DNA from: Mycobacterium sp. DL592
Lineage (GTDB): Bacteria; Actinomycetota; Actinomycetes; Mycobacteriales; Mycobacteriaceae
Length of the DNA: 64,000 nt
Reading direction: 5' to 3'
Assembly (NCBI RefSeq): GCF_011694515.1
Contig: NZ_CP050192.1
Location: 419,932-483,931 of the forward strand
A program made the translations under genes and the position numbers. Of the stretch, positions 31,271 through 55,833 are shown in pieces; the stretch's first letter is position 1, and every line of letters starts with the position of its first letter. The notes beneath the pieces are model-generated. The model made no database searches. It was not told where the DNA came from and saw only the letters and a list, made by a program, of their open reading frames with translations.

Positions 31271-31671
31271 GTGCACCGACTGTCGAGGTGGGCACCAAGC
31301 TGCCCGAACTCGCCCTCTACGGCGATCCGACGTTCATCGTCTCGACCGCCATCGCGACGCGCGACTACCAGGACGTGCACCACGACCGGGACAAGGCGCA
31401 GGCCAAGGGATCCAAGGACATCTTCGTCAACATCCTCACCGACACCGGTCTGGTGCAGCGTTACGTCACCGACTGGGCGGGTCCCAACGCGGTGATCAAG
31501 ACGATCGGGTTGCGTCTGGGAGTGCCGTGGTACGCCTATGACACGGTGACCTTCAGAGGTGAGGTGACCGCTGTCGAGGACGGTGTGATCACGGTGAAAG
31601 TTGTTGGCAGCAATAGTCTCGGAGACCATGTGATCGCGACCTCGACGTTGACCATCGGAGGAAACGCCTGA
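31267..31671 (+). CDS. chsH1: 17-HOPC-CoA hydratase subunit ChsH1 (MaoC)
   Basis: The 134-residue MaoC-like protein is the catalytic partner of ChsH2. The hydratase motif is STAIATRDYQDVHHDRDKAQAKGSKDIFVNI near residues 24-54, in which Asp and His within DYQDVHHD occupy the usual MaoC dyad region. The ATG at 31267 overlaps the chsH2 stop, and its own stop overlaps the ltp2 start (TGATG). I rejected an upstream in-frame start at 31252. Confidence 0.93.
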   Translation: MSAPTVEVGTKLPELALYGDPTFIVSTAIATRDYQDVHHDRDKAQAKGSKDIFVNILTDTGLVQRYVTDWAGPNAVIKTIGLRLGVPWYAYDTVTFRGEVTAVEDGVITVKVVGSNSLGDHVIATSTLTIGGNA

Positions 31672-32840
31672 TGCCCGGTGAGCTCTCGGGAAAAGCAGCC
31701 ATCGCAGGTATCGGTGCCACGGACTTCTCCAAGGACTCCGGACGCAGCGAGCTGCGGTTGGCGGCAGAGGCGGTAACCGCCGCTCTTGACGATGCCGGCC
31801 TGACTCCCGCTGACGTCGACGGCATGGTGACGTTCACGATGGACACCAACACCGAGGTGGCCGTTGCGCGTGCGACCGGTATCGGGGATCTGAAGTTCTT
31901 CTCCAAGATCCACCACGGTGGCGGCGCGGCGTGCGCGACGGTCCAGCAGGCCGCGATCGCGGTGGCGACCGGTGTCGCGGATTGTGTTGTGGCATACCGT
32001 GCTTTCAACGAGCGCTCGGGTATGCGGTTCGGCCAGGTGCAGCTGCGGCTGATCCAGGGCGCGGACTCCACCAGCGTGGACAACTCGTTCTCCTACCCGC
32101 ACGGGCTTTCGACGCCAGCCGCGCAGGTGGCGATGATCGCCAAGCGGTACATGCACCTCTCGGGTGCCACCAGCCGTGACTTCGGCGCTATTTCGGTGGC
32201 CGACCGCAAGCATGCGGCCAACAATCCAAAGGCGTACTTCTACGGCAAGCCGATCACCATCGAGGATCACCAGAACTCGCGGTGGATCGCCGAGCCGCTG
32301 CGGCTGCTGGACTGCTGCCAGGAGACCGACGGCGGCGTGGCCATCGTGGTTGTGTCAGCAGAGCGGGCCAAGGATCTCAAGCACCGGCCGGCCGTCATCG
32401 AGGCTGCCGCGCAGGGCTCCAGCCCCAACCAGTACTCGATGGTGAGCTACTACCGTCCCGAACTGGACGGGCTGCCGGAGATGGGTCTGGTCGGCAAGCA
32501 GCTGTGGTCGCAGTCCGGGCTGAAGCCGACCGACATCCAGACCGCGATCCTCTATGACCACTTCACGCCGTTCACGCTGATTCAGTTGGAGGAGTTGGGG
32601 TTCTGCGGCTGGGGTGAGGCCAAGGACTTCATCGCCGACGGCGCGATCGAGATCGGCGGCCGGCTGCCGATCAACACCCACGGCGGACAGCTGGGCGAGG
32701 CCTACATCCACGGGATGAACGGCATCGCCGAGGGTGTGCGTCAGCTTCGCGGGACGTCGGTGAACCAGGTACCTGACGTCGAGCATGTGCTCGTCACCGC
32801 CGGCACCGGCGTACCGACCTCGGGGCTCATCCTCGGCTGA
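31671..32840 (+). CDS. ltp2: Side-chain retro-aldolase Ltp2
   Basis: Ltp2 is a thiolase-fold aldolase that splits 17-hydroxy-3-oxo-4-pregnene-20-carboxyl-CoA into androst-4-ene-3,17-dione and propionyl-CoA, working in complex with ChsH2. The 389-residue protein has the SCP-x/lipid-transfer thiolase pattern (IAGIGATDFSKDSGRS at the start, HHGGGAACATVQQAAIAV near residue 82, and NTHGGQLGEAYIHGMNG near residue 334). The thiolase Cys is replaced in this family. It is the last gene of the cyp125 operon, and a strong palindrome follows at 32866. Confidence 0.94.
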   Translation: MPGELSGKAAIAGIGATDFSKDSGRSELRLAAEAVTAALDDAGLTPADVDGMVTFTMDTNTEVAVARATGIGDLKFFSKIHHGGGAACATVQQAAIAVATGVADCVVAYRAFNERSGMRFGQVQLRLIQGADSTSVDNSFSYPHGLSTPAAQVAMIAKRYMHLSGATSRDFGAISVADRKHAANNPKAYFYGKPITIEDHQNSRWIAEPLRLLDCCQETDGGVAIVVVSAERAKDLKHRPAVIEAAAQGSSPNQYSMVSYYRPELDGLPEMGLVGKQLWSQSGLKPTDIQTAILYDHFTPFTLIQLEELGFCGWGEAKDFIADGAIEIGGRLPINTHGGQLGEAYIHGMNGIAEGVRQLRGTSVNQVPDVEHVLVTAGTGVPTSGLILG

Positions 32841-32865
32841 GCCCGGGACCCTTCTTCTCGCCCAC

Positions 32866-32922
32866 AGTAACCTCACGGCGGTCTCGAGCCTGATTTTCCG
32901 CCGTCAGGTTACTGTCGTCGGG
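32866..32922. repeat. 57-bp flanking repeat, left copy, palindromic
   Basis: This copy matches 33787-33843 in 53 of 57 positions in the same orientation. It is itself a long palindrome: the 16-base arm AGTAACCTCACGGCGG pairs with CCGCCGTCAGGTTACT in 15 of 16 positions across a 25-base middle section that includes TCTCGAG. It lies 25 bases after ltp2 and 29 bases before the nuclease-fold gene, so it could also end the cyp125 operon transcript. Confidence 0.85.
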
Positions 32923-32951
32923 TTGTCGGACCGCCGCGGCACACTCCCGGC

Positions 32952-33854
32952 ATGGAAGGACCATTCCTCGGCAGTGAGGCGCTGGTGGCTGGCCGGTTGA
33001 CCCAACATCAATTGCGTACGAAGTTCGTCGCCGTTCATCAAGACGTCTACATCCCGGTCGGCACGGAGCTGACACCGTGGATACGTGCGAGAGCTTGTTG
33101 GCTTCGGTCTCGCCGGCGTGGCGTCCTCGTCGGCTTCTCGGCATCTGCCCTTCACGGGGCGAAGTGGATCAGTCGTGCTCGACCCGCCGAGATCAACGAC
33201 ACCAACCACAAGCGAACTCGCGGCGTGATCGCCCGCGGCGTGTACCTGGAGCCCGACGAGGTCTGCCAGAGGGCAGGCATGCCAGTCACCACACCTGAGC
33301 GCACGGCACTGGACCTGCTGTGCTGGTATCCGCCCGACACCGCGATACCGGCCGTCGACGCGCTGGCTCGCGCCACTCGGCTCAAAGTCGCTGACGTCGA
33401 GCTGCTCGCGCAGCGCTATCGCGGCCGGCGTGGCATCACGCAAGCTCGCGCCAGTCTGCAGCTCGTGGATCCGGGTGCCGAGTCACCCCGAGAAACGGCA
33501 TTGCGCCTGTTGATCATTCGAGCAGGCTTACCGCGACCAGAAACCCAGATCCGGGTGTACAACGAGTACGGCGTCCTCATCGCCGAGGTGGACATGGGCT
33601 ACGAGCACCTCAAGATCGCCTTCGAATATGAAGGTGACCACCATCGGACTGATCGTCGGCAGTTCAACAAGGACATCCGCCGTCACGACACACTCATCGG
33701 ACTCGGCTGGATCGTCATCCGCATCACCGCCGAGGACACCGACGGCAGCATCATCCGTTGGGCAGAACTTGCACTGGCTCGCCGACAGCAACCTCCCGGC
33801 GGTCTCGAGCCTGATTTTCCGCCATCAGGTTACTGTCGACGGGAAGGGGACTAG
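32952..33854 (+). CDS. AbiEi-like N-terminus with DUF559/Vsr-type nuclease fold
   Basis: The 300-residue protein belongs to a family common in mycobacteria and of unproven function. The N-terminal third (about residues 1-95, with LGSEALVAGRLTQHQLRTKF and FSASALHGAKW) resembles AbiEi-type winged-helix antitoxin domains. The C-terminal third has a PD-(D/E)XK layout: SPRETALRLL near residue 179, AEVDMGY near 215 and AFEYEGDHH near 226, then RRHDTLIGLGW and VIRI. Known Vsr/DUF559 proteins cut DNA, but activity here is not shown. The last 23 residues are encoded by the right copy of the flanking repeat. It splits the sterol cluster between ltp2 and hsd4B. Confidence 0.8.
   Translation: MEGPFLGSEALVAGRLTQHQLRTKFVAVHQDVYIPVGTELTPWIRARACWLRSRRRGVLVGFSASALHGAKWISRARPAEINDTNHKRTRGVIARGVYLEPDEVCQRAGMPVTTPERTALDLLCWYPPDTAIPAVDALARATRLKVADVELLAQRYRGRRGITQARASLQLVDPGAESPRETALRLLIIRAGLPRPETQIRVYNEYGVLIAEVDMGYEHLKIAFEYEGDHHRTDRRQFNKDIRRHDTLIGLGWIVIRITAEDTDGSIIRWAELALARRQQPPGGLEPDFPPSGYCRREGD
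33787..33843. repeat. 57-bp flanking repeat, right copy (coding)
   Basis: This is a direct repeat of 32866-32922 with four mismatches. Its stem is weaker because two of the mismatches hit the palindrome arms. It lies inside the 3' end of the nuclease-fold gene and supplies its final residues, suggesting the gene was joined to a pre-existing repeat. Confidence 0.85.
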
Positions 33855-34711
33855 GCCGGGACGAACTCAACGTCGGAAAGCGCCACGGCGTCATCGCGAG
33901 ACGGAACGGTGACCACACCGACGAAGCGGCCGTCCTCTTTCCAGATGCTGGCCTTGATGGTCTCGCCCGGGAACACCACACCGGCGAAGCGCGCCCCGTA
34001 GGTCTTCACCTGGGTGGCGTCGCCGTCGACTAGTGTGTCGACCAGCGCCTTGCAGGTCATGCCGTAGGTGCACAGCCCGTGCAGGATCGGTCGCGGAAAG
34101 CCTGCGGCAGCAGCGAATTCGGGATCGGAGTGTAGCGGATTACGGTCGCCGCACATCCGGTAGAGCAGCGCCTGCTGCGGTGACACCGGGATCGAGATCT
34201 CGTAGTCCGGTGCGCGATCCGGTGCAGCCACCGAGGTCGACGGGCCGCGCTCACCGCCGAAACCGCCCTCGCCGCGAGCGAAGATCGACCGCTTGGTGGT
34301 CCACAGCAGGTTGCCCGCGGGATCGGTCACCGTCATCTCGCTGACGATGACCGCTGCCTTGCCCTTGTCCCAGATCTCGGTGAACTTCTGCACCGACCGC
34401 CCGGTGCCGCTCGGCGGAATCGGCGCCGCCACGGTGACGGACTCGCTGGCGTGCAGCACCTTGCTCAGCTCGATGTCGATCCCGGGGAACTTCACCTTCG
34501 GCGCCTCGGTCATGTGGAAGCTTGCCGCCACACTGCTGAACGTCGGCAGCACCTGCGGGGTGCGGTCGGTCAGATAACGCAGCTCGCGCGGGTCCATCGG
34601 GTCGGAACCCGCACCCAGGCCGAGGTGGTAGAGCTGCACGTCGCTGCTCGTCCAGGAGAACTCGATGGGGTCCAGCTCGGCGCCGAGCGCCACGTCGAGA
34701 TCGATTGGCAT
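33851..34711 (-). CDS. hsd4B: Enoyl-CoA hydratase Hsd4B (MaoC-type)
   Basis: A 286-residue double-hot-dog (MaoC) hydratase, the size of Rv3538 in M. tuberculosis, which is assigned to hydration of steroid side-chain enoyl-CoA esters. The hydratase-2 motif is YRMCGDRNPLHSDPEFAAAAGFPRPILHGLCTYG at about residues 185-218, with the catalytic Asp190 and His195 region intact. The ATG lies one base after the kstD stop, so the two form an operon. Its stop codon overlaps the convergent nuclease-gene stop within the palindrome CTAG. Confidence 0.9.
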   Translation of the reverse strand: MPIDLDVALGAELDPIEFSWTSSDVQLYHLGLGAGSDPMDPRELRYLTDRTPQVLPTFSSVAASFHMTEAPKVKFPGIDIELSKVLHASESVTVAAPIPPSGTGRSVQKFTEIWDKGKAAVIVSEMTVTDPAGNLLWTTKRSIFARGEGGFGGERGPSTSVAAPDRAPDYEISIPVSPQQALLYRMCGDRNPLHSDPEFAAAAGFPRPILHGLCTYGMTCKALVDTLVDGDATQVKTYGARFAGVVFPGETIKASIWKEDGRFVGVVTVPSRDDAVALSDVEFVPA

Positions 34712-55762: not shown

Positions 55763-55768
55763 ACGCGA

Positions 55769-55822
55769 CTGTGGGCCCCGTGCACAGTTTTCGGGGGCGA
55801 ATCCCGTGCACAGGGCCCACAG
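55769..55822. terminator. Hairpin at convergent junction, dispersed repeat copy 2
   Basis: CTGTGGGCCCCGTGCAC pairs with GTGCACAGGGCCCACAG in 16 of 17 positions around a 20-base loop that contains TTTTCGG. It occupies the gap between convergent cyp142 and echA19 and resembles the element at 9216-9267 in arm and loop sequence. Confidence 0.6.
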
Positions 55823-55833
55823 TCCGGGGCGTG

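Follow-up and report, generated by a model that had tools for sequence, protein, structure and literature searches.

The 64,000-nucleotide stretch of the Mycobacterium sp. DL592 genome analyzed here (contig NZ_CP050192.1, positions 419,932 to 483,931; hereafter the window) harbored a nuclease gene (32952..33854, + strand) bracketed by two near-identical 62-bp palindromes. Copies of the palindrome were dispersed through the genome; most stood at the end of a gene, and many lay between two convergent ones. Across relatives, palindromes were cognate to the nuclease subtype and not merely positional. We consider it fairly probable that the locus is the autonomous unit of a system resembling the REPtrons of repetitive extragenic palindromes (REP), i.e., a nuclease gene bracketed by its own palindrome of about 60 bp, with non-autonomous copies elsewhere.

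Locus architecture and protein domains

The left palindrome (32859..32920, + strand; type 1 hereafter) had 23-bp arms around a 16-nt spacer and lay 31 bp upstream of the start codon, and the right one (33780..33841, + strand) was in direct orientation and overlapped the 3' end of the gene. Aligned as direct repeats (32857-32922 and 33778-33843), the two copies were 92% identical over 66 nt, with identical 16-nt loops, and the repeat pattern, allowing up to 3 mismatches, matched twice in the window and never in 100 shuffles, in agreement with a sequence-only reading of this DNA that had proposed near-identical direct repeats around the gene. That reading had also rightly seen a palindrome in the left repeat, to which it gave 16-bp arms; the arms were longer, 18-23 bp around the spacer in the window palindromes. 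Folding as DNA hairpins gave z-scores of -5.4 (left copy) and -3.3 (right copy). The open reading frame encoded 300 residues, the last 21 of which (23 in the initial count) were indeed a read-through of the right palindrome. Close relatives were 279-280 residues long and stopped within the right palindrome, at a stop codon absent from the window gene.

The structure of the window protein was predicted with confidence, the read-through tail being disordered in the model. According to this model, an AbiEi-like part (residues 1-173) appeared fused to a Vsr/EDxHD-type nuclease domain (residues 178-280), and the composition suggested beforehand, AbiEi-like first and PD-(D/E)XK/Vsr-like last, was backed by both fold and weak profile matches. 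The best fold matches, obtained with a second structure aligner on which the assignment mainly leans, were EDxHD/Vsr and AbiEi, while Foldseek alone returned no match at E ≤0.001 (best, 1zel at 0.0017). The first part displayed the AbiEi fold with its N-terminal DNA-binding domain, and the second a Vsr-like catalytic fold with conserved E, D, H and D. Among these residues, which we take to form the EDxHD motif, E181, D214 and H231 were invariant and D241 was retained in 112 of 114 family members. Comparison of a sequence profile with solved structures yielded weak matches only, including 3hrl (E 0.13) and 3r3p (E 0.47). The C-terminal domain weakly matched the Pfam families MTES_1575 and DUF559 (PF18741, PF04480), below curated cut-offs, and these domains were precomputed for many relatives. 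The window protein is probably a DNA-binding and DNA-cutting protein.

Palindrome bracketing across the genus and order

Every one of the 60 genomes sampled in the genus carried the family, with 2 to 14 matches per genome, and matches at E 1e-12 were obtained in 112 of the 150 genomes sampled in the order, a set that includes the genus itself. Bracketing was analyzed in 114 members, i.e., the window's, 4 of its own paralogues and 109 among the matches listed (best-scoring). A palindrome score of at least 11 was reached upstream of 61 members, downstream of 67, on both sides of 39 and on either side of 89, compared with 1.6% of 1523 other segments taken from these loci. Because hairpins are commoner at gene ends, a control on the flanks of other genes of these loci was added, which displayed a palindrome in 2 of 199 upstream flanks (1%) and 5 of 92 downstream flanks (5%). 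The distance of the upstream palindrome from the start codon varied little, and the stop codon was inside the right palindrome at 55 of 76 loci, before it at 16 and after it at 5.

Left and right palindromes resembled each other far more within a locus (median match 29.5) than across loci (10). At 47 of the 114 loci the top-ranked partner was the locus's own downstream flank, and a left-right score of at least 22 was obtained at 77 of 114 nuclease loci and for 0 of 47 other genes. With a margin above 3, 36 of these 77 strong pairs were direct and 20 inverted. Of 16 distant loci beyond the genus (32-38% identity), 12 had a palindrome score of at least 11 on either side; the left-right median was 26.5 within and 13 between loci, and the own partner ranked first at 8 of the 16. 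The palindrome of locus L305, whose protein was identical to one of Micromonospora mirobrigensis, had 10 more copies elsewhere in its genome, some of them partial.

The right flank of L063 (6122-6207) held a tandem array of hairpin units of about 30 bp in place of a single palindrome, and both flanks of L301, a distant relative, held repeats of a unit containing AAGTGGCCG. L095, on a contig labelled as a Bifidobacterium breve metagenome-assembled genome, was an ltp2 locus that looked mycobacterial and nearly matched L033, and its label is probably a binning error.

Palindrome types follow nuclease subtypes

A covariance model of type 1 matched 15 places in the source genome, 2 at the locus and 13 elsewhere (matches counted on both strands). 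The spacer was 16 nt in all 9 copies examined, and one base longer at one place matched later. The closest paralogue to any of the 13 dispersed copies was about 14 kb away. Among the 8 family members of this genome, 5 (the window's, L025, L027, L017 and L015) had palindromes on both sides, L026 displayed a clear palindrome on one side against a partial match on the other, and neither L028 nor L029 had any. Dispersed copies were searched for the palindromes of the window, L017 and L015. The latter two, distinct from type 1, occurred at 8 (L017, type 2) and 9 (L015, type 3) further places, some partial. As to further family loci with the same palindrome, a search proposed in the sequence-only reading, relatives with type-1-like palindromes were found at other loci of genomes G014 and G039; the paralogues L017 and L015 carried other palindromes.

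Palindrome similarity rose with protein identity over 5958 pairs at different genomic sites (Mantel rho 0.29; null maximum 0.08 in 300 permutations). The number of type-1-like matches per genome followed the E-value of the best nuclease over the 60 genomes (rho 0.71, or 0.70 without the source genome), a figure without phylogeny correction, obtained from 89 candidates scored per genome under strict filters and with a model that also catches related types. A close nuclease was present in 38 genomes, which had a median of 14 such matches and no zero; in the 22 others the median was 2, with five zeros. This link has a limit, in that G029, G009, G043, G052 and G026 had several type-1-like matches and no close nuclease. 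The repeat was therefore widespread, and linked to the gene family by flank pairing, copy number and protein similarity. In G029, 27 type-1-like matches were counted, copies that may persist after the loss of their enzyme or be of a different subtype.

Covariation was tried as a proof of an RNA helix. The type-1 score exceeded 476 of 500 shuffles, but pairs with double-sided changes and further pair types did not, so that a hairpin and a double-stranded dyad were not told apart.

Proposed mechanism

According to excerpts of the cited papers, on which all citations here draw, the 23-bp inverted repeats bound by Rv2827c in its own promoter are separated by 13 bp, and the 23-bp repeats bound by AbiEi in its own by 3 bp (PMC7319586), while the target on which I-Bth0305I forms a dimer spans nearly 60 bp (PMC3943268). 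The window palindrome has 23-bp arms, a gap of 16 and an overall length of about 60 bp. From these analogies and the conserved residues, binding of the protein to its own palindrome appears likely and cutting of it plausible; that the nuclease also disperses the palindrome is a step beyond both, which we infer. The AbiEi-like part of a dimer would bind the two 23-bp arms, the upstream copy serving as operator of the nuclease gene, and the EDxHD domain would nick or cut DNA at the bound palindrome or close to it, the palindrome perhaps forming a hairpin in a single strand at that point. Palindromes could then be copied into new junctions as the break is repaired, and recombination between the two bracketing copies could delete the gene and leave a solo palindrome. 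We tentatively suggest, with rather less assurance than for the locus itself, that these are actinobacterial mobile palindromes helped, instead of by a transposase, by a nuclease of the homing type that carries a DNA-binding domain of the antitoxin type and whose own operator might be the mobile element copied into gene ends, each paralogue ruling its own palindrome population within one genome.

The same promoter-binding precedents (PMC7319586), together with the fairly fixed upstream distance, are consistent with a simpler explanation, in which the palindrome only serves an AbiEi-like repressor as operator (and 3' boundary), the nuclease domain does something else, and the dispersed copies owe their spread to an unrelated enzyme or are further sites bound by the repressor. 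We find this unlikely, since it leaves unexplained the matched 3' copy, the copies between convergent stop codons and the copy number following the nuclease. The usual helpers of known REPs are Y1 transposases, and the corresponding family (PF01797) had no match in the source genome nor in 50 of the 60 genus genomes, which argues against such an unrelated enzyme, other transposase classes being outside this search.

A defence or addiction unit, in which the nuclease would attack incoming DNA and the genomic palindromes would titrate it or mark self, had been considered in the sequence-only reading. PADLOC returned AbiEi profiles and one marginal restriction endonuclease match, which, with the restriction-endonuclease-like domain, would fit such a unit; the defence profiles ended there, no partner toxin gene was recognised, and the 114 members were spread over 34 site clusters, so that we hold a defence role to be improbable. 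Carriage as phage or plasmid cargo was likewise rejected: 2 weak phage matches (host not given) and 8 weak plasmid matches in Tsukamurella, Arthrobacter and Nonomuraea were obtained, none of them mycobacterial by record name.

Gain, loss and position of palindromes

The window cassette separated two genes, which we take to be ltp2-like (31671..32840, + strand) and hydratase-like (33851..34711, - strand, 286 residues), and which would be convergent without it. This junction was variable among 80 related loci (L030-L109), the distance from ltp2 to the 286-residue gene ranging from 23 bp to 3.8 kb where both were on the locus. The presence of a palindrome at the same junction differed between species. 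G043 had a single palindrome, right-copy-like by eye, at the very position occupied by palindrome, gene and palindrome in M. rhodesiae JS60 (L045) and others, and by eye the join was at the left edge of the palindrome. This is an empty site with one repeat copy, for which the sequence-only reading had proposed a search, and its notion of a small mobile unit also drew support from a solo palindrome in G009 at the place of the window cassette (with a different downstream neighbour), from junctions in other lineages that had no palindrome at the search threshold, and from the relatives with type-1-like palindromes at other loci in G014 and G039. L035, L041, L046, L048 and G012 had short junctions without palindrome at the ungapped threshold, that of L048 showing a shorter imperfect hairpin by eye.

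The G043 site, with its right-copy-like remainder and its join at the palindrome edge, and the direct orientation at the window locus would also fit a site-specific gene cassette that recombining palindromes excise and integrate, as with integron cassettes or solo long terminal repeats. This is a still less probable explanation: 20 of the 77 strong pairs were inverted, and ordinary homologous recombination between 62-bp repeats would equally delete the gene. The flanks of 15 solo loci of the source genome matched those of the 114 nuclease loci once only, about 1.2 kb from the gene, so that most of these solo copies were not shown to be cassette remnants.

A second convergent junction, between what we presume to be DUF4439-like and proS genes, was readable at 28 of 30 loci. 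The gap was at most 18 bp, without element, in 17; type 1 was present in the source genome and G009, two other palindrome types in G018, G039 and G021, and a degenerate palindrome within a longer insert in G004, while five longer gaps had no palindrome at threshold. No clear target-site duplication, the mark of an insertion sequence or MITE, was seen by eye between filled and empty copies of one junction, the genomes compared being distant.

Genes around solo copies were called with a simple script, nearby nucleases being excluded if among the matches listed; from 40 loci, 2 at contig edges, 2 mis-registered, 1 duplicate and 1 cassette-borne were removed. Among the 34 solo copies left, 12 lay between co-directional and 3 between divergent genes; none was inside a called gene, and four overlapped the called end of a neighbour. 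The remaining 19 lay between convergent genes (convergent pairs, 10 of 61 in the window), as ordinary bidirectional terminators flanking the gene by chance would, an explanation that is very improbable given that palindrome sequence goes with nuclease subtype and that the element was absent from the 17 short DUF4439-like/proS junctions. The terminator role proposed from sequence found no support in a consensus scan, which is blind to a possible Rho-dependent effect, and no Rfam match was obtained at E ≤0.1.

Comparison with known systems

The REPtron-like reading rests on features shared with REPtrons and their RAYT (TnpA-REP) enzymes: a palindrome-bordered enzyme gene, further copies scattered over that genome close to gene 3' ends and at convergent junctions, and enzymes specific to their repeat when several families of palindromes coexist (PMC3733652, PMC8266576). 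In contrast to REPtrons, the window enzyme was an AbiEi-EDxHD nuclease instead of a Y1/HuH transposase, several paralogous units occurred per genome, and the palindromes, of about 60 bp, had no GTAG at their foot by eye on 18 aligned type-1 copies (CGTC was not looked for systematically). The unit works like a REPtron, yet the defining enzyme and tag are missing and it is therefore not one.

Unlike AbiEi-type antitoxins and Rv2827c, the window protein had an extra nuclease domain, and a matched palindrome was also present downstream and dispersed in the genome. No AbiE nucleotidyltransferase toxin gene was recognised adjoining it, as judged from open reading frames and homology with no profile scan, so that the locus is not an AbiE system. 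It differed from I-Bth0305I and other EDxHD/Vsr-fold endonucleases in that no intron or intein was seen at the gene, in having two whole flanking palindromes instead of a split target, and in its other DNA-binding part. The MTES_1575 and DUF559 family names are silent on palindromes. Neither a description of such a nuclease-palindrome system nor an assigned function of the family was found in the open-licence literature, where the nearest works, seen in excerpt, concern REPs, REPtrons and stem-loops (PMC3733652, PMC2267715, PMC8266576) and AbiEi or EDxHD proteins (PMC7319586, PMC3943268).

The bracketed family looks like a little-known kind of nuclease-driven mobile DNA. If the REPtron-like reading is right, it would provide the REP-like palindromes of mycobacteria, and of some other actinobacteria, with a helper enzyme, help account for palindromes between convergent genes in these bacteria, and mean that palindrome dispersal arose with a second, unrelated enzyme chemistry.

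An unrelated 58-bp palindrome (55767-55824 of the window) lay between convergent genes, 4 bp past the stop codon of a P450-like gene, and had two weak other matches in the genome.
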